Below are positions 6,640 to 23,747 of a stretch of DNA of 64,000 nt, one piece after another. The translations under genes and the position numbers were made by a program. This DNA is from Polytrichum commune. Taxonomy: Eukaryota; Streptophyta; Polytrichopsida; Polytrichales; Polytrichaceae. The notes below the pieces were generated by a model that was given only the letters and a program-made list of their open reading frames with translations, had not been told where the DNA came from and searched no databases. Every line of letters starts with the position of its first letter. Positions within the stretch are counted from its first letter, which is position 1. The stretch lies in the NCBI GenBank assembly GCA_950295325.1, contig OX485803.1, positions 11,222,001 through 11,286,000 of the forward strand, in the 5' to 3' direction.

Positions 6640-7400
6640 AAATCATGTACACAGTAAATAGTAGACAATTTCCAATATATAATAAATAAAAGTATGTTAA
6701 TAGTAAAACATTATACTATAAATAGTAAATAATACTAGCACACCATTAATAGAACTAATATAATAATATAACAAAATAATAAATATCAGACCGTAAATAG
6801 TAAATAATATACTATATACATTAGATAAGAATAACATACTGAAAACAATAAATAATATACTATATAAAGTATACAATAATAAAATACTATAAATAATAAT
6901 AGAAGACCATTAATAGTACTAATATACTATGAACATTGAAAATTAAATATTAGAATAAACAATATACTACATACAGTAGATAATAATAACATACTGAAAA
7001 TAATAAAGAATAAAGAATAATAAACATCAGACCATTAATAGTAATAATATACTATAAATATTAAATAGTAAATATCATACCATAAATAGTAAATAATATA
7101 TTATATACAATAGACAATAATAACATACTGAAAATATAAAATATAAAATACTATAAATAATAAGCTATAAACAATGAATATTAGGTAGTACATAATAAAT
7201 ATGATAATATAAATAGTAAATACGAGGCAGTAAATAGAAAATACGAGATACTTAATAATAAATAATAGGCAGTATATAACAAATACTGGATAATAAATTA
7301 TAAGCAGTAAATAATAGACAATAAATAATATATGCTGTATATAGTTGATATTATATTGTATACAATAAATAAAAAATAAAAAATAATTTGGGGCCTCTAT
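6640..7400. repeat. AT-rich degenerate minisatellite
   Basis: About 760 bases built from variants of ATAGTAAATAATA, ACTATATACA and AATAATAACATACTGAAAA, with almost no G or C. The phrase AATAACATACTGAAAA recurs near 6830, 6985 and 7115, giving an irregular higher-order periodicity of roughly 130-155 bases. The 101-residue minus-strand open frame over it (I, Y, L and F only) is a composition artefact. Confidence 0.8.
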
Positions 7401-7520: not shown

Positions 7521-8652
7521 TAGCCTACTAGGTAAGTGTCTAGGCACTTAGAACTATAGGTGCTTATAGATGGCAAAGCTCGGGAGGTGAGGATTGGACT
7601 TACTAATGGTGGATATCTCTTTTAAATGGCATTCATTTGTTATGAAATAGGACCACTCATTATTCAACATATCAACCAATGATAGCCCTACACATGTATG
7701 CGCATTTTAACGTTAAGTAATAATTTAGTGTGGAGCCCGTAAAACTTTTAGTATATTTAGACATCATAAGCAATGGTCCTAAACATATTAGCTATGTCCA
7801 AATAGACAATCCATGGAGTGTAGGGCATGGTCCCCCAAGACATGTCGTAGACAACACACTTTCTAGTAATATATGTTATTAGGTCACGTCTTTATTTACT
7901 TCAATAAATGTCTTGTTACATGTCTAGATTGTACATAATATCTAGTAGTGGCAATGGCGTTTGGGGTGGGTGGGTTGGGAGGGGGGAGGCCCTGTAATAG
8001 GTGATTGATGGCTTGGTGGAATGCACAACATAAACGAAAAATTAAGGAGACCATGGGAAACATCGGCATTATGTTTTCACTCAAAATATCGCCTAGCATA
8101 GATCGAAACTATTCGTCACGTCACATGGCATTGTAAGAGAGTGTGTTGACAAAATGTGAGCAAACACACCACACACTTCAATATGTTATTTTTTATTATT
8201 TTATTATTCATAAGGGCTAATATTGTGTCATTAATTATGGGAATACGGCGTTTGGGCATCAATAATGTTAATAAGTAATTAGAGGTGAGCATGCATTCAA
8301 GATAAAATTAGTTGGGACTTGGGATTAGTTATCGGCCATGTAAATCACACACTCACATCCCTTATGTAGTGATGAATTGGGATGATTAGGAAAAAATCTA
8401 ATCCCTAAACCGATTAATTAACTTCAAGGAACACAAAGGATTGGCACATGTCGTATGTATAATTTTAACCCAGTGATTGTCACACTTTGGCCTTTCAATA
8501 TAGTGGAATTTGCAATAGTTATGAATTACTATCCAATAAAACCACGTTGCTGAATTTTCCACTACAAGCCTAACTAACCATGGAATGATGAGTTACTACC
8601 GGCCTTAACGGAGCCGTCAATATATGACTACTAAAGAGATGTAAGTTAACCA
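7521..8652. other. Intergenic, nothing recognised
   Basis: No coherent coding frame or repeat boundary beyond the likely SINE body at its start. A CACTACAAG string at 8559 is isolated. Confidence 0.5.
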
Positions 8653-8665
8653 TAGTAATTGTAGG
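8653..8665. repeat. 5' target-site duplication of the large retrotransposon
   Basis: TAGTAATTGTAGG is repeated exactly at 23052-23064, immediately after the TATC tail. A perfect 13-bp direct repeat flanking a non-LTR element is the expected mark of target-primed insertion, and it defines the element as 8666-23051. Confidence 0.8.
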
Positions 8666-10692
8666 AACACGGTAAGCTATTGCACATACAATTCATATTA
8701 ATGGGGGAAGCATTTTATGGTGCGATGGCTGTGTGGAGCTGAGGTGCAGTGAGGGATTGTTGCGTGATGGTTGGTGTTAGGTCACAGATCTAAGCTCTTT
8801 GTTTGGATTACGGGAGGAGTGGTACCCAAATCGTGATCCACAATGAAGAGTATTAGATCTAAGCCCAGATCTCACTAAGTGTTGTAGCTGCTCCAAAACG
8901 GATTAGTACTGAAGCGGGCTGGAATCCGGGAGTAAGAGCAAGTGTTGGTGCCAACGGGAAGCTACTGAGCAGCAACACGAATGTGAGATCTGAGGGTACC
9001 TGCACACCCAAGCGCAGCAAGACCCAAACTGCTTACACACAAACAAGAGATACATATTACAAGAATGAAGATGCCGAAGAAGAACGCCGTAGGAGAACGA
9101 CGAAGGACTCACTAAGCTGCTACCAAAGGAGCGTCACCCACAACGACCGCATCAGATACCGAAGAAGAACGCCGAAGGAGTTCGTTGAAGGCCTCACTAA
9201 GTTGCTGCCGAACAGGGTAGAGGCGGCACCGCCTTGCTGTCAAAGGATCTGCTCACCCGGACGCTGCCCAACCCACTGTTGGACCCTCTAAAGCAATGCT
9301 GCTACAAGAAACGCCGATCCAAAAAGAGACAACGCCGAAAGAGCATCGGAGAAGATCGAAGGAGACGCCGCACAACGCGAGATCACCAACGAGCAGAGGA
9401 AGTAACCAGTGACAAAGGACAGACATTCGACCGCCCAGACCATTGGCACCAGCCCTCGCAACACCAAACACCAGCGGACTTTTTCAAATTACATCACTGT
9501 AAACACTACACCCTCATCTCCATAAGTATAGGATAGTCTGCCCTAGATCACGTCTCCTAAACATTCATAGATTGATCAGTGGCATATTTGACATGATTGA
9601 TAGTTAGATTGCCGAAAACAGGACTCTCAGACCTTACCTCTCACCCACATAGTACTTGCATTACGAGTAGACCCCATCCCGAGGGAGGATAGAAAAGATC
9701 CCTCATAACCAAACCCTTCACCGGAACCCTGATTTCTTAGTAAGGGATCTCTTAGATCCCACCTCCCACCCTTCTACACTACGGAACCTGCACCCCAAAC
9801 ACAAGCCACGAGCTTGCCCATGCTGGAGACCCGACGCGGGTAATTACCCAAGATCACAAGTTCTTACCGAATCAGGAGTTTACACAAGCACAAGCATCGC
9901 CGGAGGAGTGACAAGGAACTGGATAGTGCCGTGAGAGCAGTCTGATAACCTACAAAGACTACCCATTTCCGACGTTGCTACCGAATCAGGGGTTTACACA
10001 AGCACAAGCATCGCCGGAAAAGTTGACAAGGAGCTGGGAAGTGCCGCCAATGCAGTCTGATAACCTACAGAGACTACCCCATTTCCGACGTTGTTGCCGA
10101 ATCAGGAATCTACACAAGCACAAGCATAGGCGGAGGAATTGACAAGTAGCTGGGAAGTGCCGCGAGTGCAGCCTAATAACCCACAGAGACTACCCCATTT
10201 CTGACGTTGCTGCCGAATCAGGAGTTACACAAGCAAAGCATCGCCGGAGGAGTTGACAAGGAGCTGGAAAGTGCCGCGAGTGCAATCTGATAACCTACAA
10301 AGACTAACCCGTTTCCGACAAACAAAACTCTGCACAAGCTCAACAAAGTGTTGTCTAGCCACAAGCTGCTGCCATTTCAAAAGAAGTTAACACAACCCCA
10401 ACTCAGCAACCCTCAGCTGCGGCAGAAGAAAGGATCAGGCGAGACGCTACCGAAGGAGAACGCTGATGCAGGAGCCGAGGAGGAAGAATATTGTTGCCAG
10501 CAACGAAGCTGCCACTGCCAAGGCCGAGGCCCAGTAAACCGAACACCAAGACATCCACAGAGAGCAGCTAGACTGACTACGGGGGCCGAACTATCTGGAA
10601 GACCTCACACCCACCATCAGAAGCTGCGAACGACTTGGTGTTGAGAAGGACATAGAGGGGAGCTGCTGCCCATCGTGTCCCCAATCAAAAAC
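8666..10692 (+). promoter_or_regulatory. Long 5' leader of the retrotransposon
   Basis: About 2 kb before ORF1, noticeably richer in G+C than the flanks. It contains an imperfect repeat around GAAGAAGAACGCCG (9067-9235) and the four ~115-bp units annotated separately. Non-LTR elements carry an internal promoter near their 5' end, so this leader probably supplies it. Short open frames here (8983-9291, 9234-9536, 10348-10644) have Arg/Lys-rich or mixed translations with no motif and are not called as genes. Confidence 0.5.
9866..10322 (+). repeat. Four tandem ~115-bp units in the 5' leader
   Basis: Units start at about 9866, 9980, 10096 and 10212 (spacing 114, 116, 116). Each begins with (A/G)CCGAATCAGG and continues with ACACAAGCACAAGCAT, CGGAGGA, GACAAGGA-CTGG, GTGCCG and TTTCCGAC. 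Tandem 5' monomers of this kind act as promoter units in some LINEs, such as mouse L1 A and Tf types. That role is inferred here from position only. Confidence 0.85.
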
Positions 10693-12450
10693 ATGGCATC
10701 ACCTTCCACCCTCCGACCCATCTTTGGAGATGATGACAACATGGAGGTAGACACACCCTCACAAAACCTCATGCGGCTCTTAGCAGAAAAGGCAAAGGAG
10801 AACCAGGCTGCGAAGGAAATAGGCATCAAGAGGACCCGGGAGAAGACAACACCGAATAAATCTCTACACCAAACCCCACAACGACGCCCACAAACCTCAC
10901 AGGTAAACTCTATTGTCCCGGAACGAAGGTTCCGTCAAAAATTTTGGTATGGTTTCACTAACATGGAGAAATTGGCTATGGAAGAAGGGTTGGAAGAACT
11001 CTTCGATGGTGAATCCATTGAAGATAGGGTACTTAGGGGAGTGCCAAGGAAGGAAGCGGAAGAAATGGAGGGGGTCGCAATATCCTTCCCAAGGATATCC
11101 CAAATCTACTACTCAGGTAAGAGAGAGGATGGTGTCCTTGGACAACACCTCAACCTAACACGAATCCCATATGATATCCCAATTGATCCCAATACATGTC
11201 TTGCTTTGGACTTTCATGTTGCTATTGAATTTCAATTACCCAACACCCCTCTCCTACACAACCATGTGAAAGAACTAGTAAGGAAAAGACTTGAGTTTAT
11301 GCAAATTCCTCTTGGCACTAACCTTATTGAGCCCATATCTATCATGTGCATGAGTGTCAAGAGAGGTGGAGAAAAATGAGTTTGGGCGGGAATTGCCAAA
11401 CTCCACCTTCTCCACCCCGAAATTGATGGTGTGGCTTTGTTGAAAGGACTTAGACCTTTCATTCTACAATTAAACCCCAAATCAACCCAAGGTACTCTTG
11501 GAAAGGTATGTAAGACTTACCACTCCATAGCTAGGAACAACAACCTTTCAATCAAAATCACTAGCGAAACTTTGATTGATGTCTCTTCACACATGCTCTT
11601 CAAAGATATCTTAGAGAATAGTTTTAGGAGAGGTCATGAATTTGAGATTGTAGAGGTGCAAAAGGGCACTCCCAACAATCATGCTTACATTGTTGCACCA
11701 ACCCCCTCACAAGCCAAGAAAATCCAAACACTTCAAGTTGCAATACACCATGAAATTTTGGAACGACAAGTGAACAAAGGGCCTTCTCTCACCTTTGAGC
11801 AAAAACAAAGGAAATAAGCTCTAACCCTCACCTTCTACAACCTTCCCATCTTGATGAGCATAGATGACACATCTCTTGAAATTTGCAAGATAATTGGAAC
11901 CAAGAATGTTGTCTCCATTTGGTTCCATAAGCAAGATGGAATTAGACACAATGGTAGTGCAAATGTTGAATGCCTCAACCCCTTTGTATACAAAAAGTTT
12001 GTAGGAAAAGAGGAAAAAATTGGTGTTTATCATGTGGAAATTACTCCACACCGTAGGAGTCTTGATGGTATTGACAAACCCTCCAAAGATTTGTTGGTCA
12101 AGTTTGGATTTGAAGATACTAACACTTGCTTGGTGAACACCATTGAAGCAATCCAAAACCAAAGCCAAGGAGAGAAGAATGCCACCAAAAACGAAGTTTT
12201 TACCATCATGAAGGAGGCCATTGAAGAAGGGAACAAGAAACTCAAGCCTGAACTACACGAAGAGATGAAGGTCTTGAAGGATGACATAGTCAAAGAGGCC
12301 CACAACTATGTAGATGACATCAACGAAAAATTGAAGAAGCAAATGTTGGACATCCAAAGCACATTAACCATGGCACTTACCGGGATGCAACAAATTACTG
12401 GGTTGGTAAACCCAAATCTTATGATTAAAGACCTGCCAAATGTGGATTGA
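10693..12450 (+). pseudogene. Retrotransposon ORF1 (RNA-binding, RRM-like, coiled coil), two in-frame stops
   Basis: One frame runs from ATG 10693 to TGA 12448-12450, broken by TGA at 11377-11379 and TAA at 11815-11817; all three open segments share this frame. The chosen ATG (context AACATGGC) is the first in frame. The N terminus is acidic, then basic and proline-rich. A middle block includes a GIAKLHLLHPEIDG segment just after the first stop. From about 11820 a segment patterned like an RRM follows (TFYNLP, then NVVSIWF, then NGSANVECLNP, ending in EITPHRRSLDG). The last ~90 residues are a heptad-rich coiled coil (12180-12400). This matches LINE ORF1 proteins, which bind element RNA and multimerise. 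The first stop probably replaces Trp (TGG to TGA). Readthrough cannot be excluded, but two stops favour a decayed copy. Confidence 0.7.
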
Positions 12451-12459
12451 CCACAAATC

Positions 12460-15400
12460 GCCGGGTAAAACAAAAGTATTTACTTCAATACTATCTTAGA
12501 TAAATACACATATGTAGACATAGTATTAAACATAGTATTACACATAGTATTCTATATACTATTACACCTAGAATAAATACTAGATACCATCGTACTACTC
12601 ATAGTATCCCACAATGTCCAAAATACCATATGAAATACAAGTTATCTACTTTATACGAATACAAATTCCATACTCAAACAAAATGCCATACTCAAACAAC
12701 ACACCATACTCAAGCAAAATACCATACTCAAGCAAAATGCCATGCTCAAGAAAAATACTATACTCAAGCAAAATACCATACTCAAGCAAAATACAATACC
12801 CAAGCAAAACACTATACTCAAACAAAATACAAATACCATACAATTAATCCAAAATACACATACTTCCTACTCAAACAAATAAAAAGCATAACACCCGCCA
12901 AAACTAACCCTTTCACTATAACCAAAAACATAATCATAAAAAACCAAAGAATAAATAAGACTAAAACCCGACCACACCCAAACATCATACACACACCTAC
13001 AACAAAGACCGTACTCTATAATAAAAGATACCATCATACTAGCCATGATACCATACGACGGCCAAAATACCATATGAAATATAAATACAATCACTTTACT
13101 TTACACATGCACAAAGACAGAACTCAAACGAAACAATATACACACCCAAAATACAAACCCCACACAAAATACATATTACACCCAAAATATAACCCTCATC
13201 AAACATATAAACTCCACCAAAAATACAAACCCCACCCAACATACAAAACACATCCAAAATACACATACTTCTTACCCAAACAAGTAAGAAACATAACACC
13301 CGCCACAACCAACCCTTCCACCACAACCAAATATATATGCACAAAATATCAAAAAATAGATATCACTAAACCAAACACACCTTACCCAAACCTCAAAACC
13401 CACCCAAAACTATACTACAACCCAAAACACAAATACCACGAAAAATACTCAACTTCCATGTTAAAAATTAACAAAAAGCATAATAAACTAGAACAAGATT
13501 GGCCTACCGGCCTCGCCAATAAAGAAAACAAAAAACAAAAAACAAAAAAAGATAAAAGAAAAGATGAACAAAACAAAAACATACCAAAAAACCAAAACCA
13601 CAGCTAACATAACAAGACATAAACCACCCAACACCCTTTACCAACAAAGACCCATCAACCCAATTACTATATCCCCTATGAGATTAGAAATCCTTTTGTA
13701 TTCCTATAATACAAACATCTACACTGCCCTACAACCACAATACACCTCTTATGCAATAAAAGATATACCATCAAAAAACAAAGAAATCCAACCACACCCT
13801 AGTACCATATACACACCTACAACAAAGTCCACACTCTTTAAAACTAGATATTATCATACTAAGCATGATATCCTACAATACCCAAAATACCATATAAAAC
13901 ACAAGTACAACTACCTTACTATATACACACACAAAAAAAATACTCAAATAATACACTACACGCATCCAAAATGCAAACCCCACCCAAACTCAATGTTACA
14001 CCCAAAATATAGACCTCAACAAAAATACAAACCTCATTATACATATAAAACCTTACCGAAATTAAACATAAACCCTACGGACAAACACAAGAAACAAACA
14101 AACATAACCAAAGCACACATCCAACATACAAAACACACATATACAAAACCAAAACCATATCCAACACAAAAGATAATAAGAAAACATACAAACACACACC
14201 ATATCACTACAAACACAACAACCCACAATACCACCTCACCCCTTTCAAAAAAAAATCCCCTAAAACACCAAAACATAAAAACACAAAACATAATCCATGA
14301 CAACCACCTAAGAAGGGCTCGGCCTACCGGCCTCATACCCATACTCATTCCACCCCAAAAAACCAATAAAAACAAATATCAAACACTCAAACCACACCAA
14401 AACATTAGCCCAAGTCTTTACCTTAAAAAACAACTCCATCCCCACACTAAGCACAAAATTGCACCCAAACACAAAAAGGTTTTAGCCCACCGGCCACGCC
14501 ATAAAAGTTATAAAAACCAATCTACAAACGAAGAGAAACCAAAAGTAATAAAAATCTACAACATACACCTCTTACCCAAACAACTTGAAGAAATCACATC
14601 CATCCTACACTACAATGCCCATCCAACCCACAAACACCCCCAACCTCACTCAAAATACATATCATATCCAAAACATAGACTCCATCCAAGACACAACTCT
14701 CATTCAAAGAGTAAACTTCATCCGAAATATAGAATCCGCTCAAACCTCAGACTTTACCTTAAAAACAAAGTGCATCCACAACAACGCCCAAAGCATAATA
14801 CCTACTCAAAACAAGAAACCCAACCTAACCTAGAACCTCACCCGCTATCTAAAAAACATCCCAACCTACGCTCAAAAAACACACCATACCCTAGTTCCAA
14901 ATCCAACCTCCACTTGGAATACAAATCATATCACAATTACAAAATGACCTTGTCCTACCATCTCCACCACAAGCCAAACCCTATCACAACCAAATGGAAA
15001 CCACGCACAACTACAAAACACGTACTCCAAGACAACTCCCATACACACCTCTTAACCAAATATAACACCCACCAAAACCACAAATCATTCCCCAGAAACC
15101 ACCCCTACTCAAAACTAAATTTGCACACTAAACAAAAACTCAACCCGAAAAACAAAGCAACCTCAACCTACCAACCTCACCTCTCGACAAATACCAAAGC
15201 ATACCTACAAAACAAATGCTCCAAAAATAAACCCTACCCTAACTTCGAACTCCATCACAAAATCAAAAACCTATTAAGCCCTCATACAAAATACCAACCC
15301 CACCCAAAAAATACAATGGCCTCGGCCTACCGGCCTCGCCACACAAATAATAACAAATGCCACTTCATAAATAATTGGAAACCTAACTCAATAACAAGCC

Positions 15401-15480
15401 AAAAATCTATAAATAATACAAAACCACACTTCTCACCCATACAAATAGAAAATACCATACCCGCTATACCTAATCTCTCT
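12460..15480 (+). repeat. G-poor internally repeated tract in the retrotransposon
   Basis: The plus strand is almost all A, C and T. It starts with an 18-bp minisatellite (CATACTCAAGCAAAATAC, about 12660-12830). Larger diverged units follow. ACCTACAACAAAG occurs at 12995 and 13815 with similar flanks, and GGCCTACCGGCCT at 13501 and 14321; both pairs are 820 bp apart. Variants of the second motif lie at about 14485 and 15324. A CTTMYTACYCAAACAA phrase recurs at about 12862, 13268 and 14572. The GGCC islands are nearly the only G-rich spots in 3 kb. Most of the apparent N-terminal coding sequence is therefore repeat-derived. Confidence 0.75.
12630..13607 (+). other. Low-complexity open frame, probably not a separate gene
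   Basis: 325 codons from a true ATG, translated as H/T/Q/K/Y-rich repeats (HTQAKY hexapeptides, then HPKY and KPH units). Its later part is clearly similar in protein sequence to residues of the next open frame (13564-15972) one 820-bp unit downstream, but in a different reading frame. Scarcity of stops in A/C-rich DNA explains much of the openness. It may be part of the 5' region of ORF2, or noncoding. Confidence 0.4.
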
Positions 15481-15972
15481 ATCACAACCAAATTCACAAT
15501 CACAATATATCCAAAAATAATCCACTTCCACGGATACTACTTCATTACCAAACTAGAACTGCTAAAATGCGGGGACATAGAATCCAACCCCGGACCAATG
15601 CCTAACATACTACATACACATCCTGCTACACACAAAAAGAGAGCCAACATATACTTCATCCCAAACACTATAAAACTACAATCTGAATACCAATACATAG
15701 TAAATACATTTGCTCCCATACTAAAAAATACACACCCACTACATCATCAAGCAATAAATACCCACCCACATCTACATCAATACATCCAAACACAAAGGCA
15801 ATCACCACTAATTCATATGCTATATGCTATAGTCATCACCATCCACCCCTCAATAGACACATGCAATAGCATACTAGCCCAACTCCAAAATCACCACTTT
15901 AACGACATATGGACCAACACATTAATTATTAGACTAGCTAACCTCACCAACCCCCCGAAAGGCACATATTGA
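13564..15972 (+). CDS. ORF2 N-terminal part with a 2A ribosome-skipping motif
   Basis: 802 codons from ATG 13564 to TGA 15970-15972. The first ~660 residues are H/P/K/T/N-rich and repeat-derived. Near the end, 15556-15597 encodes ELLKCGDIESNPGP, a full match to the 2A consensus D-x-E-x-N-P-G-P. In known 2A sequences the ribosome fails to join the final Gly and Pro (here codons 15592-15594 and 15595-15597) and continues, releasing the upstream product. The 2A is followed by about 124 ordinary-looking residues, then a stop, with the APE frame starting at once in another frame. 2A motifs upstream of APE are known in trypanosome L1Tc/ingi elements and in some animal LINEs. Here the 2A would separate the low-complexity leader protein from the enzyme polyprotein. 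The start site is uncertain. Confidence 0.65.
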   Translation: MNKTKTYQKTKTTANITRHKPPNTLYQQRPINPITISPMRLEILLYSYNTNIYTALQPQYTSYAIKDIPSKNKEIQPHPSTIYTPTTKSTLFKTRYYHTKHDILQYPKYHIKHKYNYLTIYTHKKNTQIIHYTHPKCKPHPNSMLHPKYRPQQKYKPHYTYKTLPKLNINPTDKHKKQTNITKAHIQHTKHTYTKPKPYPTQKIIRKHTNTHHITTNTTTHNTTSPLSKKNPLKHQNIKTQNIIHDNHLRRARPTGLIPILIPPQKTNKNKYQTLKPHQNISPSLYLKKQLHPHTKHKIAPKHKKVLAHRPRHKSYKNQSTNEEKPKVIKIYNIHLLPKQLEEITSILHYNAHPTHKHPQPHSKYISYPKHRLHPRHNSHSKSKLHPKYRIRSNLRLYLKNKVHPQQRPKHNTYSKQETQPNLEPHPLSKKHPNLRSKNTPYPSSKSNLHLEYKSYHNYKMTLSYHLHHKPNPITTKWKPRTTTKHVLQDNSHTHLLTKYNTHQNHKSFPRNHPYSKLNLHTKQKLNPKNKATSTYQPHLSTNTKAYLQNKCSKNKPYPNFELHHKIKNLLSPHTKYQPHPKNTMASAYRPRHTNNNKCHFINNWKPNSITSQKSINNTKPHFSPIQIENTIPAIPNLSITTKFTITIYPKIIHFHGYYFITKLELLKCGDIESNPGPMPNILHTHPATHKKRANIYFIPNTIKLQSEYQYIVNTFAPILKNTHPLHHQAINTHPHLHQYIQTQRQSPLIHMLYAIVITIHPSIDTCNSILAQLQNHHFNDIWTNTLIIRLANLTNPPKGTY
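15574..15597 (+). other. 2A peptide motif (DIESNPGP)
   Basis: The codons GAC ATA GAA TCC AAC CCC GGA CCA encode the eight-residue 2A core, preceded by ELLKCG, the usual hydrophobic-then-Gly upstream context. It is in frame with the 13564-15972 open frame. Confidence 0.9.
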
Positions 15973-17000
15973 CACCTCACCCCTACACAACATTTGTAGG
16001 AAACAATCAAGATATAATACTCCCAAAAAATTCAATATACACAGAAATATATGAATTCATTCACAACCAAGATACTACACCCACACCCATCACCCTCCAA
16101 AACAAATTTCCCTTCCTCCCGAATCAATTGATCACTAAAGCACTTCGATGCCTAGAAAACATAAACGAATACTCGCACCCACCCCTACCCCCAGCTACTC
16201 CCGCACCAACCATAAGAATCAACACAAACACTATACACGAAACAAACATAATAACATGGAATGCATCATCATTCAACACTTCACTGCCAAACCTACAAAG
16301 CCTAATAAACAATTCGCTAAACAACACAGCAATCATACATATCCAAGAAACCAAACTAAATGCAAACAAATTTACAAAATATATACAAAATCTATTTCCG
16401 GAATTTAAACTCATTTTCAACAACACACATGCACTCACAAGATGCATACAACAAAGAATGCCCTATACACCCGGAAGAGGAGGCCTACTCACACTTATCC
16501 ACAAAAAATATGCATTCCCTGGAAATATTACCAAAATTCCCACACCAGCAAATATCTCCTCATACCTACAAATAATTAAAATAAACAATCACCCACTAAT
16601 ACCTTGGCTAATAATACATATGTACATGTCTACACACTTAGAAGACATACACCTCCTCCCACACCTTAAGAACGAAATCACTATAAATCCCAATCACATA
16701 TACACATTATGTGGCGATTTTAATCAAGATATTGCACTTAGGGGCAGGCAAAATAACAACATTAACAACCCCCCTACAAGAAGAAGACTACCAATGGAAA
16801 AAATTTACTGCATCACTCAACTTAGAATATATCCCAACTAACACTCGCATCACCAGATAAGGAGGCTATAATTACACATCAACAAGTCTAATAGATGGAT
16901 TCTACATCCACTCACCAGACAACAGCAAATTCATCTCCACCACAAATACAAATATGAATCTAAACTCAGACCATTATCCAGTTGCACTACATATCCCCCC
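15969..17000 (+). pseudogene. ORF2: APE-type endonuclease domain
   Basis: Exonuclease-endonuclease-phosphatase domain that nicks target DNA. Visible in order: ITWNASSFN (16251), HIQETKL with the catalytic Glu (about 16340), GRGGLL, IHMYMS, CGDFNQD (16710-16730), then after a frame change SLIDGFYI and NLNSDHYPVALHI with the catalytic Asp-His (SDH 16966-16974). No ATG precedes the domain in its frame. It follows directly on the TGA of the 2A frame, so it was probably once fused to that frame or reached by frameshifting. Breaks: a shift at about 16769-16774 in a run of six C, and TAA at 16858-16860 between TR and GGYNYTS. All catalytic residues I can check are present. Confidence 0.85.
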
Positions 17001-20000
17001 ACAACACCCTTATAGCCAGATCCCCACCCCCTACAACCACGTCACCAACTAGAATACTAAACCCAATATCATCAGAAAATACTAAAAAATTCAACATAAC
17101 ATTCTTTGAAGAAAACTCTGCCCAAATAAAAACCCTTACTACATTACTAGAAAACCATCAACACTTAAGCCCGGATCAATGGGTAGAAGCCTGTACAACA
17201 TTTAACCATATTGTAACAAAATTTCAGAAACAATTGAAAAAACATGTAAAGCAGACCCGTTACCAAACCTTACGAGCAGAATATCACAATAAGGTGGTTT
17301 TCTGCCACGAAAACTGGCCAGAGAATGGAAAAAACACCTCAACACATATAACCTCATAAGAAAAACCATATACATTGCACAAGACGATCCACTCTGGCAA
17401 GCACACCCCATCCTAAACAATATACGAAACCACCAACACACAAACATCCCACACCCACCTATCACAACGGCACCCCCTACTGAGTGGATTAATACCATAG
17501 CAACCATAGCAAAAAAGACAAATAAAGAAGCCTGAAAAATCACCACAAAATACACCAAAGACTGCATTCTAAAAGCCGTATCAAAATACAGACAAATGTA
17601 CGAAAGAAGTCCCAAAACAATAAATCGGAAAGGTTTCAAGAATACTGAAACCTCACCCGTGGACTCTATCATTGATAGACAAAACAATATAATAACCAAC
17701 CCAGAAGACATCGCATTAGAAATTTACATACAACAATCCATCAGTAACCATCTTACAGTCCCCACATGTCAATACCAAAATACACACCTACTACACTGCA
17801 TATGTGGAGTCCGACAATATCCATGGCATGACCTAGACGGATACATAATTGACAAGCGAGGAGAACCCCACACCCCTCTATACACGTATTTTGACCAAGA
17901 AACATACGACTTTTGTCTTAAAAACCTAAGTAATAACAAAGCCCCCGGCCTAGACAAAATACCTAATTCAATTCTAAAAAATATGCCTCCACACTTCCAC
18001 AAACTACTCTTCTTATTCTTTAAACACTGTTATAAACAAAAACAAATTCCCGCATCATGGAAAACCAGTCTAACAGTATTACTATATAAAAAAGGAAACC
18101 CATCACAACTAACAAACCACAGACCTATTGCGCTAGCTAACACCATATATAAATTCTACACGAGTACACTAACCTCTATTCTATCAACATATGGCGAAAA
18201 ATACCAAATATTACATGACAGTCAAGAAGGCTTCAGAGTAGAGAGAAGAACTTCTAGACAAATCCAACTACTCATCGGAGCGCTTGAAGACGCAAGACTC
18301 ACGAACCAAAATATATATATCCTCTACATTGACTTCAAAAACGCCTTTGGCTCCATTGATCACGCCAGACTTTTAGACATATTCAAAGATTTGGGATATC
18401 CCACTGATTCCATAAACCTCATAGGAAACATATACTTTCAATTCTCAATAATATTCATTGGCGAACACTTCCGAAAAAACTCACCAATCCCTATTCCAAG
18501 ATGTACAATACAAGGGGATACCCTTAGCTAATACTATTTATCATATTCCTAGAACCCCTCCTCAGATGGCTACAACAAAGAAATAATGGATACACTTTTG
18601 ACACATCTAAAGTAAAAATCTCATGAGCAGCATATGTAGATGATCTTGCAGCAATCGCGAATAAACTAGAGACATTGCAAACACAACTCAACAAACTAGA
18701 CAAATTCTGCAAATGGGCAGGAATGGACCTTGGAATACCCAAGTGTGCAATAACTGGCTGCCCAAACAAATCCAAACTTCACCCCACAACCTTTAAAGCC
18801 CTAATCCAATCCACCAATATAAACTACAGGAATCAACCTATACCAGTCTTAAACCAACATGAACCATACACGTATCTAGGAATAAACCTTGCACCATCAT
18901 TCAAATGGAAAACACAAATAAATACTACTACAGCTAAAGTCATCAAACAATGTCAAGCCCTTGCAACATGCCCAGCTACTATGAAACAAAAAATAAACAT
19001 GGCAGATACAGTCATACGCGCTGCAATAGCATATAGTTTCTACGCAGTACCTTACTCCATACCAGCTATCAAAAAACTAGATAAAAAAATCATAGGACTT
19101 CACAAAACGATCTGCGGGATACCCAAATGCACATCTAACATCGCTACACAACTCCCACACAACTTATTTGGAATCGAAGCTTTCTCACTACAAAATGCCT
19201 ATCTAAGATGCATTGGAGAACAACTACAAAATGCCCTCAATGACAAAGGGAGAATTGGAAAAATATATACTGGTCTATTACAATTCATACTCGCCAAATA
19301 TGGGGGCTCTCAAAAAATCACTCGCATGAAATACCAACACTGTATTAGATCACCCATCACTAGAACATTGTTCTTGCTCAAACATAAAGCCGGAGTCCAT
19401 CTAAAAAGCACAATAAATAATTTTCTACTAACCCAATCCTCACTTGAAACTGCATGGATGCAAGAAGCACAAATGCTACATGGCCTAAACCCCAACACCT
19501 CACTTAAACTACTACATAAACTACTTATACATAATATAACCACACTAGACCAAATTACCATGCCTAATGGTACCACTCTAATGAACAAGGACGAATTCAA
19601 AATCTACCACTCCACTCCTTCTAAAATTATCCAAAGCGCACTTAATATAGCTAATCAACTATTCTGCCACCCCCCTTGTAATCAATGCTCCCTACCTTGC
19701 CAACAACATCACCCAACAAGATCCCTAAAAAACAAATATATAATAAGAAATCACAACATCCTACCTCACACACCGACCGCCCCCGTACACCCCCCTAACC
19801 TCCCCATCCCCCATCTACCTCCTCCCCCCAACAACATGCTTAAAGACCCCCGACAATTCCCCATACACAAAATACTCGATCACAAACAAAAACAATCTAA
19901 TGACCACGACGGAATAAAAAGAACAGTCACGTCATACCTATGTCAATGGACTACAACAAATAACAACACATATAATAAATGGCGAACCCAAAGGGACCTA

Positions 20001-20760
20001 TACCCCTATTGTGAAGCCAACATATGCAATCACAACACACACCTGCTTATCCAATATTACACAGAAAGACAACACAAGCATTTTTCGAACATCATTAACG
20101 CCTACTTCACCACAGAACAACACCGAGACACAAGATACGTCACACCAACCACAATAATTCCGCTAGCACATATCTCTATTAGTGAATGCAACCCAGAAAA
20201 CGACATTGAAACAAACTCTGGTACTATCCAAACACAATTCGATGTCGCTCACATATACGAAGACAATGGAAGGCATCTCATCACCATCCCGAAAGCTAGA
20301 CTAACATGGCTATGGAAACAATACCAATTGGCAAAAAATACCACACACGGTCTAGAACCATCTACCCAATCATTCGAAATTGAAATTGTTTGGCTATACC
20401 AAAGATACAAATACCGTATCCCAAAAAACGACCCACTCAAAGGAGCCCAATATACGATACCAACTCAAATATCGGATCTACTAATTACAACATTTAATAT
20501 TAACCACTCATATTTTTCATCCCCAGTTACATGTCCTACACAATTCACCCAATTCTACTCACCATTCTCACGAGACATAATATTTGGATCCTTAGGTAAA
20601 GTGTTTGACTATAAATGGCAAGGAATCGGATACGCACATCCTCACAACTCAACAGACTTACAACAAGCCATCCACTGGGCACGCATGGCGGCCCAAAATG
20701 ACCCTTACACAATCACTATAATTATATCCCCAGACACTGATTGGACCAAAACTCGAACCC
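17000..20760 (+). pseudogene. ORF2: reverse transcriptase domain and connector
   Basis: Reverse transcriptase copying element RNA at the nicked target. Motifs: KAPGLDKIPNS (about 17940), YKKGNPSQLTNHRPIAL (about 18090), QEGFRVERRTSRQ (about 18225), YIDFKNAFGSIDH (about 18328), CTIQGDTLS (about 18505), and the active-site YVDD at 18633-18644. The thumb follows to about 19200, then a connector with a Cys/His cluster (CHPPCNQCSLPC, about 19665). Breaks: frame changes near 17000, near 17290-17320 and near 18530; TGA at 17533-17535 (probably ancestral Trp in KEAWKI) and TGA at 18624-18626 just before AAYVDD. The pieces are collinear and cover the full domain. Confidence 0.85.
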
Positions 20761-22606
20761 ACACACATGCCCATTCCCAGACACACATGTCATTGCCCAT
20801 TTTGCCGCTGACACAATCACATATGAAGAACCAACAATACCCCCCGAGCTCAATATCACAAGGAAAGAACCATCTACCATGCAAATATTTTGTATCCATC
20901 ACCAAAATAATAACATAGGTACCTACGAACAAATGAAGTTAATAAATGACACAGCAAATACCCTCCAAATACTACAAAGCCACACTCAAATTGCAACACC
21001 CACCCCTCCGAACATCACCGTTAACCCTAGTAAAAAATGGGCTAAATCAAACTACCCAAACACACCCCTACACAATAATATCCCCACCCCACAACTTCCA
21101 AACTACCAAACTAACTTACCGCTAAAATTCCACCCCCAATTTAGTTACTACACGGACGGATCCTTTATAAAACCCAAATAAATTGCCCCTGGGGTATGGA
21201 GAAGAGAAAGAGCTGGATACGGTATATATAATCCCAAAGGCTTAAATATCGCCAAAAGACTCCATGGGCATCATAACATACTACGTGCAGAAATGATGGC
21301 TATACACAAAACACTAAGAATCATCAATACACAATTCCCTAATGAACCCGCATTTATATTCACAGACAGTCTAAACGTATTATACCTACTCAACACACAA
21401 ATTAAACACCCCACTCTCCATAATAGTCACCCAGACCAAACCACACTCAACTCCATGGTAAAAATCCTTCAAGACCGTACACAACCAATCACACTATACA
21501 AAGTCAGAGCACACGTCAACATTGACGGCAATGAAAAAGCGGATAAACTAGCAAAAGACGGGTTAGAATTAGAACACAGAATTGCCATCCACCCATACGA
21601 ACATGCCCACGCCACCCCGTACTATTATCAAAAGGACGTCTGGGCCTCGATGGCAGACGTCCCAGACAAAGGCCCAGTAAGATTCTTAGAAAAACAAATT
21701 AAAAAATATGATAGGGAAACCAATATAGCAATCATGGCCACACAAACCCCCAACACGTGTAAATGGACAGAAAATATAGACATTGACAAAGAACTGTCCA
21801 ACGAATTCTGGTCAAATCCCTTAATCAGAGACAAACAAAAATCTTGCCTTATCAAATTCCGCACAGGAACATACATGGGTTATGCTAGAAAACAAATGTT
21901 CTTCGGTCACCAGAGGTACCCCTCTATCATGTGCCCTATATGCAATTCAAATGATCCAGACACTTGGCTACATGTACTATTGAAATGTAACCAACAACAT
22001 ATACACTCACTACGAATTAAAAGACATAACAAAGCAGTCGGAGAAATTAGGAAGCTCCTAATCTCGTCCGAAAAATCCCGATGTTTTACTCTCATGAATG
22101 CCGGTACCTTCAATAATAATCCCCAAGAAAATATTGTCCCCAATTGGCTACTCCCCTGCACATGTAACACACAAAGATGTCATTGCAACGCAAGATTTCG
22201 ACCTGATATACTCTGCGTTAAAGGATTACCATATCAAAATGACCCCCCCATTAACATTGACCCTAACCTCACCATACAATTTATTGAATTCACATATTGT
22301 AACGACAGATTTTCCCCAGAAGCAATAGAAGCAAAAAACAACAAATACAAACCATTGATTGATAGTATCGCTTCCAGAGGATGGAAAATCGAACCACTTA
22401 TTGTCATCACAGCTGGGGCCCGAGCTACGGCCCACATCCCATCTATAAAAATACTAGAAGAAAATCTCAAAATACCCATGGTTACCATCAAAAATACCTT
22501 TAAAAATATTAATACCATTGCAATACAATATGCCATGTCCATCCTCCTCCATAAGAGGAGAATTGAAAACCACCAACCGCTCCCCCAAAACTTAGACCCT
22601 CCATAA
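20741..22606 (+). pseudogene. ORF2: RNase H, CCHC finger and restriction-like endonuclease
   Basis: One frame from about 20745 to TAA 22604-22606, with a single TAA at 21179-21181. RNase H type I is complete: YYTDGSF (Asp codon 21155), LRAEMMA (Glu 21290), FTDSLNVL (Asp 21365) and VRAHVNIDGNEKADKLA (Asp 21542). A CCHC finger follows (CPIC, then WLHVLLKC, about 21930-21990). The C terminus has RFRPDILCV (RPD at 22199-22207), then IQFIEFT (Glu codon 22286-22288), then EAKNNKYKPLIDSIASRGW. This finger, RPD, Glu, K-x-x-K-Y-x-x-L order is the layout of the restriction-like endonuclease of R2, NeSL and Dualen elements. That domain call is strong by pattern but not structure-checked. Confidence 0.8.
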
Positions 22607-23036
22607 AACCCAAAAACTTATATAATATTTAATATCTATTTACAGCTCATAATGAGGGATTGATGCCGGCTGGTTGGTACAAATTTCCTGCCTTTTACTC
22701 ACTTGCAGCACCAAGTCACGTCTTACATTTTAAACGGTCATACGGACTCGACTGGAATCGAACCCGGAACGTCTTAACTCAAACATCCTCCCACAACCAA
22801 CCGAGGAATCATGACTTGGTGTTCACTCTCATTACAAGAACACTAATTATACTTAAAAGGCATGCACCCCCATGGGCCATGATCGGCCCATGTTATTTGT
22901 TTCTCGGTTACTATAGTGTCCATCCTCGAAAGAGGAGAGTAGTCTTGTCCCAGCTTCCCCATGTCCTGTGGGCATCGGGTTGTTGGCATTACAAACGGAC
23001 ACTCTATTCACGCCGGCCCCTAAAAGGGACCGGAGT
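22607..23036 (+). other. Retrotransposon 3' UTR
   Basis: About 430 bases between the ORF2 stop and the tail, with ordinary base composition, unlike the G-poor ORF2. On the minus strand, positions 22769-22752 read GTTCCGGGTTCGATTCCA, a close match to a tRNA T-arm/B box. An open frame (22660-23067) over this stretch runs past the element end and has no motif, so it is not called. Confidence 0.6.
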
Positions 23037-23064
23037 TTCTATCTATCTATCTAGTAATTGTAGG
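23037..23064 (+). repeat. TATC-repeat tail and 3' target-site duplication
   Basis: The element ends in TTTC(TATC)3, like the short-repeat tails of I, R2 and related non-LTR elements. The exact duplicate of 8653-8665 follows directly (23052-23064). Confidence 0.8.
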
Positions 23065-23358
23065 TAGTAATTCTTAGTTGAGGCAAATAGTTGGTAAGCC
23101 GCCATGGTGGAGTGGGCCCGGTTGGCCCCACCCAACATGGGTACTTAGTTGAATAATGTTACGGTATGTTAACATACATACATATGGAATGATCAAAACC
23201 CACAACATGAATGCCAACTCTTGACCAAGCAAGCATGTTTGATGAATAGCCTCTTCGCCAATATGCTACCGTCATTATTGGTCAATGTATTTCGGTGAAC
23301 CCCAAAAAATATCAACTTTTGTGTTTGGCTTTTATATGGTGGCACCAAGCGTGTGTTA

Positions 23359-23747
23359 GGGCCAGTTCACATGCGACCCCAAATCCCAAGTCCCAAGTCA
23401 CTTGAGGTCATCCACGCAATCTTAGTTGTTGAGAGCATGGAAGTTGGGACTTAACACTTCATGCAAAGTCCCAAGTCCCAAGTCCCAACTATGAAATGAA
23501 ATGCCTACATGGCAACATTTTTCGAAGGTCTTCTTGGGACTTGTGTTGAGAGTTCGGTCGAGCAAAAAGCTGAACCCAACTCTCAACTAAAGTCCCATGA
23601 TATTTGGGCATTAAATAATCAATATCAATTTTCAATTATATTTTACCATATTTTAATGGTTTCTTGAGGCTCAAAAGTTGGGACTTTGCCTCCATGTTGA
23701 GACTTGCTAACATGAGTGGGAGTTGGGACCCCATGTGAACCCACCCT
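23359..23747. mobile_element. MITE, ~389 bp, imperfect ~30-bp terminal inverted repeats
   Basis: The left end GGGCCAGTTCACATGCGACC and the reverse complement of the right end, GGGTGGGTTCACATGGGGTC, match over most positions and continue as C-CAA-TCCCA. The interior is rich in repeated CAAGTCCCAAGTCCCAA phrases and has no coding frame. The family (hAT-like or other) is not decided; flanking 8-bp duplications are not evident. Confidence 0.6.

Follow-up and report, generated by a model that had tools for sequence, protein, structure and literature searches.

Dualen is described as a group of long interspersed nuclear elements (LINEs) with both an apurinic-type endonuclease (APE) and a restriction-like endonuclease (RLE), and is taken as evidence that the RLE was replaced by the APE (PMC4640811). 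In the excerpts accessible to us, RandI is placed in green algae only, with L1 and RTE in flowering plants (PMC3747384), Dualen is reported in relatives of Chlamydomonas (PMC8226300) and in cryptophytes (PMC12747079), and the LINEs of land plants are given as L1 and RTE (PMC9033089). Among the literature matches listed, all from the accessible parts of open-licence papers, none described a land-plant Dualen/RandI element, a LINE with a PCIF1-like domain, or a 2A-like peptide in Dualen/RandI. The window analysed here, a 64,000-nucleotide stretch of moss DNA, very probably contains a dead copy of a Dualen/RandI-type non-long-terminal-repeat retrotransposon that belongs to a polytrichaceous moss, is long (12-14 kb) and is still conserved. 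Our confidence in the identification of the element is high, and as far as the searchable literature shows, a LINE of this type is new for land plants.

Like the Dualen/RandI elements of green algae, as the same excerpts present them, the moss element combines APE and RLE, here in one open reading frame (ORF; 2625 aa in an intact copy), carries RNase H (PF00075, E=5e-13 in the intact protein) and has at its 3' end a simple repeat other than poly(A), namely (TATC)n, seen at 25 distinct ends. Its reverse transcriptase (RT) groups with dual-endonuclease elements, including at least six relatives with both nucleases, rather than with L1 or R2. It differs from the algal elements in its moss host, its length of 12-14 kb, its 2A-like peptide and its PCIF1-like domain. 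As is generally known, R2 has no APE and is specific to ribosomal DNA; the moss element shares its RLE fold, but an APE is present and the copies lie at unlike sites with unlike flanks. Plant L1 elements share APE, RT, RNase H, target-site duplications (TSDs) and 5' truncation with the moss element, but it is general knowledge that they have no RLE, PCIF1-like domain or 2A, and the moss RT lies apart from L1 ORF2. The tails also differ, being (TATC)n in the moss element, (ATT)n or (CTATTT)n in algal RandI (PMC3747384) and poly(A) in plant L1 (PMC9033089).

The element, its copies and its relatives

An earlier note on the window had proposed one element, bounded by perfect target duplications and holding APE, RT, RNase H and RLE. 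This description held: the 12-bp repeat AGTAATTGTAGG, searched for on the + strand, occurs just twice in the window, directly flanking 8666-23052, and all four domains lie within that interval (Table 1). The proposed length of about 14.4 kb was measured at 14,387 bp, but it belongs to a long subfamily and is not the norm of the family, because an intact TSD-bounded sister copy measured 11,965 bp (n=1). ORF1 is decayed, and so is ORF2, which is broken into seven segments whose frames vary and contains four in-frame stops; the window copy is dead.

We searched the genome (407.8 Mb, 64 contigs) with the protein sequence of the RNase H and RLE region (RNH-RLE) and obtained at least 96 matches (96 scored of 6184 first-look candidates); among the matches listed, those other than the window are 91-98% identical, and three of the 96 fall within a 2625-aa open frame. 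Ten copies were fetched for close comparison. In the 11,965-bp copy C2a, of a sister subfamily (TSD TCCATTCTTAAC), the intact ORF2 protein P0001 is 2625 aa stop to stop and runs in the order leader, 2A-like peptide, APE, RT, PCIF1-like domain, RNase H, CCHC and RLE. The ORF2 leader is far longer in the window copy than in the sister subfamily. The sister ORF1 is 747 aa stop to stop, and Pfam found no convincing known domain in it; we also observed that this frame (L022) opens with a hydrophobic segment resembling a signal anchor and with a part that contains Cys, ahead of the conserved region.

The C-terminal RLE gave no Pfam match in the window copy, but motif, profile and models of the sister protein and its relatives bear it out. 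The CCHC, RPD and E residues are invariant across nine proteins, the match to the R2 profile has E=5.8e-8, and in the model of the sister protein all seven Foldseek matches of the C-terminal fold at E<=0.001 are R2 (the solved structures compared were 9nl3, 9dou and 8gh6), so the fold check that the earlier note proposed came out as R2-type. The APE was identified by motifs aligned with relatives, some of which pass Pfam.

A search with ORF2 returned 18 related proteins, in which blastp found domain matches to RT (18/18), PCIF1-like (9/18), APE (7/18), RNase H (11/18) and RLE (8/18), while precomputed Pfam assignments gave PF12237 in 5/18 and PF03372 in 10/18. Two have named organisms, Haematococcus lacustris (P0009) and Cordylochernes scorpioides (P0019, a distant RT). 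In an RT tree of 24 rows, which is unrooted, weakly supported near the midpoint root (71/71) and has three long branches, the two moss sequences fall inside a set of 15 rows with 13 relatives (ultrafast bootstrap/SH-like approximate likelihood ratio test 96/93), one of them that from Haematococcus lacustris, and L1 ORF2 and three R2 sequences fall outside. Six of the 13 (P0002-P0006, P0010) have both APE, by blastp or Pfam, and RLE, by blastp; the remaining seven are incomplete or have one nuclease only. The fuller proteins among P0002-P0013, which come from public genomes and metagenomes, have RT, PCIF1-like, RNase H and RLE colinear with the moss element (blastp), but their RTs are 36-43% identical to it. 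We use the clade name Dualen/RandI because of the architecture and the one named green-algal relative, Haematococcus lacustris. The RNH-RLE protein search returned 155 relatives, which among the 120 listed are 48-94% identical over the aligned part. The 29 with sufficient coverage form a clade with both moss rows (99/99), apart from seven relatives from the ORF2 search, in a tree that carries a long-branch warning and does not include P0009.

Between RT and RNase H sits a domain resembling PCIF1/CAPAM, the cap-specific adenosine N6-methyltransferase. The sister protein matches the PCIF1 profile at E=5.1e-10, and its model matches the PCIF1-type fold over about 200 residues (6irw, 6is0), with the rows for other folds all lower. 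The fold and the FASPLN...FG.. sequence motifs are alike, but the moss domain is embedded in a LINE polyprotein and lacks NPPF, the motif that carries catalysis in PCIF1. AHPH stands in its place in the intact copy and is retained in all four relatives whose match spans the motif. Decay is ruled out as its origin, because the intact copy and relatives 51-57% identical over the region share it. Single relatives carry other accessory domains: Ulp1 (P0002), OTU (P0005), PHD with C5-methylase (P0013) and, by accession, PF02099 (P0009) and PF00856 (P0015), which we take to be Josephin and SET. The group thus appears to acquire protease, chromatin or modification domains readily.

The ratio of nonsynonymous to synonymous substitution rates (dN/dS) was compared between subfamilies, with C2a set against W (the subfamily of the window copy), C6c (which spans RT onward only) and C1c. 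It was 0.08-0.16 in APE, 0.05-0.12 in RT, 0.07-0.09 in the PCIF1-like domain, 0.10-0.13 in RNase H and 0.12-0.19 in RLE, against 0.13-0.26 in the post-2A and linker stretches and 0.41-0.63 upstream of the 2A motif. Since the motifs are conserved and dN/dS is low, both nucleases appear to be maintained. The earlier note had expected a bearing on how APE-type and RLE-type LINEs are related; motifs and dN/dS favour both nucleases having been kept, but the unrooted tree does not carry the part that concerns ancestry. In all three comparisons dS is 0.28-0.81 in APE, RT and the PCIF1-like domain but 0.08-0.19 in RNase H and RLE, a three- to four-fold drop from the PCIF1-like domain to RNase H (window 20909-21134). 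This suggests recombination or conversion between subfamilies near that border, homogenising the 3' third.

Weighing other explanations

Several observations weigh against a conserved, single dual-endonuclease element. The Pfam score of the APE is below the cut-off in the window copy and in the intact proteins, and its sequence found nothing significant in PDB (best E=0.2). The RT tree contains no Repbase RandI/Dualen, I, RTE or CR1 references and no plant L1, so that the phylogeny proposed earlier stands for the grouping with dual-endonuclease relatives, apart from L1 ORF2 and R2, and not for a comparison with named Dualen, I and RTE. Between the young copies C2a and C6a dN/dS is less clear (0.22-0.72), as expected of post-insertion drift. 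The TSD search was convincing in only two of the ten fetched copies, C2a and the 5'-truncated C6b (11 bp). C5a has a possible TSD, a 12-bp repeat right after the tail with its 5' partner about 480 bp upstream of the sequence common to C5a and C2a; C1c yielded an AT-repeat match only, and the remaining six had no repeat of at least 9 bp within the ranges searched. Window 8666-10670, used as a DNA query, had 16 matches including the window, at 13 places outside it, and seven of these places have no scored RNH-RLE match within 16 kb downstream. Matches in other copies start at query base 59 at the earliest, and the duplications TGAGTCAATCT, TAATCCCATTATGA and TACCAATCCTAAA described below stand about 97, 33 and 46 bp ahead of the part in common with the window, so the extreme 5' end varies and is not shared.

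The interval could be a false chimera, an APE-type LINE with an RLE-type element inserted into or beside it, and, outside 429 bp of C1c and some short pieces of low identity, the 5' 6.5 kb (window 8666-15225) indeed has no DNA alignment to the ten fetched copies; appreciable alignment of C2a begins only at window base 15225. Yet the intact sister ORF1 matches window 10834-12372 at 37.6% over 527 columns (tblastn, E=2e-96), therefore the 5' half of the window copy is the same kind of module, diverged. In sister copies a single 2625-aa frame encodes APE, RT, RNase H and RLE. At five of the 13 places, moreover, the 5' match precedes an RNH-RLE match of like strand by 12,085 to 15,394 bp (12,568 bp in the window itself, from query base 60), and at a sixth (C4:46710872) only a later part of the 5' untranslated region (UTR) is found, 9,040 bp upstream. 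All three of the five-place copies with examinable flanks are bounded by TSDs, TGAGTCAATCT, TAATCCCATTATGA and TACCAATCCTAAA (11, 14 and 13 bp); as a chance control for TGAGTCAATCT, its 5' flank was shuffled 200 times, and a repeat of at least 10 bp arose twice. Because the sister ORF is uninterrupted and the copies matched at both ends have their own TSDs, the halves are not separate nested elements, and we consider a nested or chimeric origin, which the earlier note had named as a way to be wrong, largely ruled out and extremely improbable.

Within a single dual-endonuclease element, it is somewhat unlikely that just one endonuclease works and the other, whether the RLE-like C-terminus or the APE, is retained for DNA binding or structure. 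Most LINEs, as is generally known, manage with one endonuclease, the APE similarity is weak, and several relatives, some of them incomplete, have no APE match or no RLE match; against this, the expected motif residues are present in both domains and dN/dS is 0.08-0.19 for both between subfamilies. We also think it unlikely that the element reached mosses from an alga or protist and not by descent. In the accessible excerpts such elements are reported in green algae and cryptophytes and a land-plant review has L1 and RTE only, which would fit a transfer, but the 31-row RNH-RLE clade is deep with much internal divergence, making long residence likelier, with 29 of its rows having no host name. 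That the PCIF1-like domain remains a working methyltransferase, its catalytic loop changed, and methylates the RNA cap or DNA of the element is quite unlikely. Its fold matches PCIF1, it is among the most constrained domains, and several relatives have NPEY, NPPP or CPPF at the motif site; however, with AHPH in moss and HPTQ, HLWK and HPGR in three relatives, the motif has been lost repeatedly and the fold kept.

Feature map and proposed mechanism

Ahead of APE, the window copy and seven of the ten fetched copies carry the GDIE(P/S)NPGP motif; in the other three, C3a, C6b and C6c, which lack it, the family match starts at about window 17004, 18142 and 18202. Both forms, GDIEPNPGP and GDIESNPGP, agree with the 2A consensus D(V/I)ExNPGP, and a G-I-E-x-NPGP motif ahead of APE is also found in the relatives P0005 and P0006. 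The accessible part of PMC12846837 discusses 2A and cites work on 2A in APE-type LINEs of multicellular organisms.

At the 3' end, terminal GGGACCGGAGTTTC followed by (TATC)n of varying length was found at 25 distinct ends (loci L001-L040, of which L003 and L016 gave no separate row), with a search pattern that selects for terminal GGGACCGGAGTTTC; by eye, the flanks of these ends are unlike each other. The energy of the 3' stem-loop (-13.7 kcal/mol) is for a single sequence without a shuffle control. In the 5' UTR, the repeats of about 115 bp may be promoter-monomer-like.

Table 1. Features of the window copy and its flanks (positions in the window)
Feature	Position	Strand	Basis
5' TSD AGTAATTGTAGG	8654..8665	+	exact 12-mer
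Whole LINE copy, long subfamily W, 14,387 bp	8666..23052	+	TSD boundaries; 5' and 3' ends recur jointly in TSD-bounded copies
5' UTR	8666..10674	+	portion from about 8724 recurs at 5' ends of other copies (start of match at query base >=59)
About four ~115-bp tandem repeats within 5' UTR	9845..10309	+	repeat families D8, D10, D13
ORF1, two in-frame stops	10675..12450	+	ORF calls; 10834-12372 homologous to sister-subfamily ORF1
ORF2 leader, repetitive, His/Lys/Pro/Tyr-rich, before 2A-like motif	12630..15537	+	ORFs; 18-bp-spaced repeats
2A-like (StopGo) motif ...LLKCGDIESNPGP-MP	15538..15603	+	motif match
APE endonuclease domain	16224..17100	+	mapped from P0001 495-790; Pfam E=2.8e-3, below cut-off; motifs aligned with relatives
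Reverse transcriptase	17911..19167	+	RVT_1 E=1.2e-11; mapped from P0001 1061-1480
PCIF1/CAPAM-like domain, AHPH instead of NPPF	20082..20909	+	PF12237 E=2.7e-12 at 20337-20786; sister-protein model and profile
RNase H domain	21134..21583	+	PF00075 in 21293-22606 (E=2.7e-6); 5e-13 in intact protein
C-terminal CCHC and RLE domain	21584..22606	+	invariant columns, R2 fold, R2 profile match
RLE landmarks	CCHC ~21932-21988, RPD ~22199-22207, E ~22286	+	invariant columns
3'-terminal stem-loop (CCGG-CCCT/AGGG-CCGG) adjoining tail	23010..23037	+	RNA fold -13.7 kcal/mol
(TATC)n tail	23040..23052	+	simple repeat; same tail, repeat number varying, in other copies
3' TSD AGTAATTGTAGG	23053..23064	+	exact 12-mer

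The copies lie at unlike sites, several with duplications of 11-14 bp, and one examined copy is 5'-truncated. We propose that the element RNA would be copied by target-primed reverse transcription. ORF2 would be translated downstream of ORF1, ribosome skipping at the predicted 2A motif may release the enzyme from the leader, and the enzyme would then recognise the 3' stem-loop and tail. We assign the priming nick to a loosely specific APE because the insertion sites are unlike; the RLE/CCHC module may bind the target DNA and cut the second strand, and RNase H would remove the template. Judged from sequence, this division of labour between APE and RLE is held with moderate confidence. With NPPF lost, the PCIF1-like domain is most likely a non-catalytic RNA binder, possibly of the capped 5' end, and not an m6Am methyltransferase, a role that we predict from its motifs with low confidence. 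Still more tentatively, in a proposal that we rate as rather unlikely as a whole, dual-endonuclease LINEs would have captured a cap-methyltransferase fold before the moss elements split from their relatives, and in mosses it would act as a non-catalytic binder of the cap or 5' end which, with the 2A-released replicase, favours copying of the unusually long (12-14 kb) RNA in full length.

Some other observations concern the element and its surroundings. A segment at 22728-22826 of the 3' UTR on the minus strand (GGTTCGATTCC) looks by eye like an antisense tRNA-derived sequence, with no report from ARAGORN or Rfam; no tRNA (22600-23100, ARAGORN) and no Rfam feature was found in the element. Just beyond the element ends are perfect 16-nt inverted repeats TAGTTGGGACTTGGGA (8309-8324 and 23476-23491), with a further inverted-repeat pair near the ends (8305-8326 and 23382-23403), and the element may have inserted within an older inverted-repeat element. 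Upstream of the LINE is an A/T-rich degenerate repeat array of the type TAAATAGTAAATA (window 6655-7374). Upstream of the sister copy C2a, at 2218-2806 of the joined L021/L022 stretch, lies an inverted fragment of about 590 bp that is 79% identical to the RLE part, and may derive from an older third subfamily.

Host and significance

The land-plant genome that had been guessed from the sequence was confirmed by an intact matK on contig C8. Among the 120 of 351 matches listed, the top one is 97% identical, the best named match is Dawsonia sp. of the Polytrichaceae (89%), and further named matches are Oedipodium (75%), Tetraphis (72%), Tetrodontium (71%) and Sphagnum (57%); a bacterial or algal host is ruled out by this gene. 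Of the assembly, 406 Mb lies in seven contigs of 42-78 Mb each, in agreement with n=7 in Polytrichaceae. Partial matK matches on the large contigs (C1:44839401, C2:70037132, C3:48930998 and C5:20289380), two of them with several stops, are probably plastid-derived nuclear fragments.

The finding widens the LINE repertoire of land plants beyond L1 and RTE. Dual-endonuclease elements are the best living witnesses of RLE-type LINEs giving way to APE-type, and with a conserved family whose ORFs are intact in a moss, the division of labour between the nucleases can be put to the test in a lineage open to experiment. It also raises the question of why a LINE retains a highly constrained PCIF1-like domain after the loss of NPPF. 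If the tentative role in binding the cap or 5' end is true, the LINE protein would sense its template at both ends.

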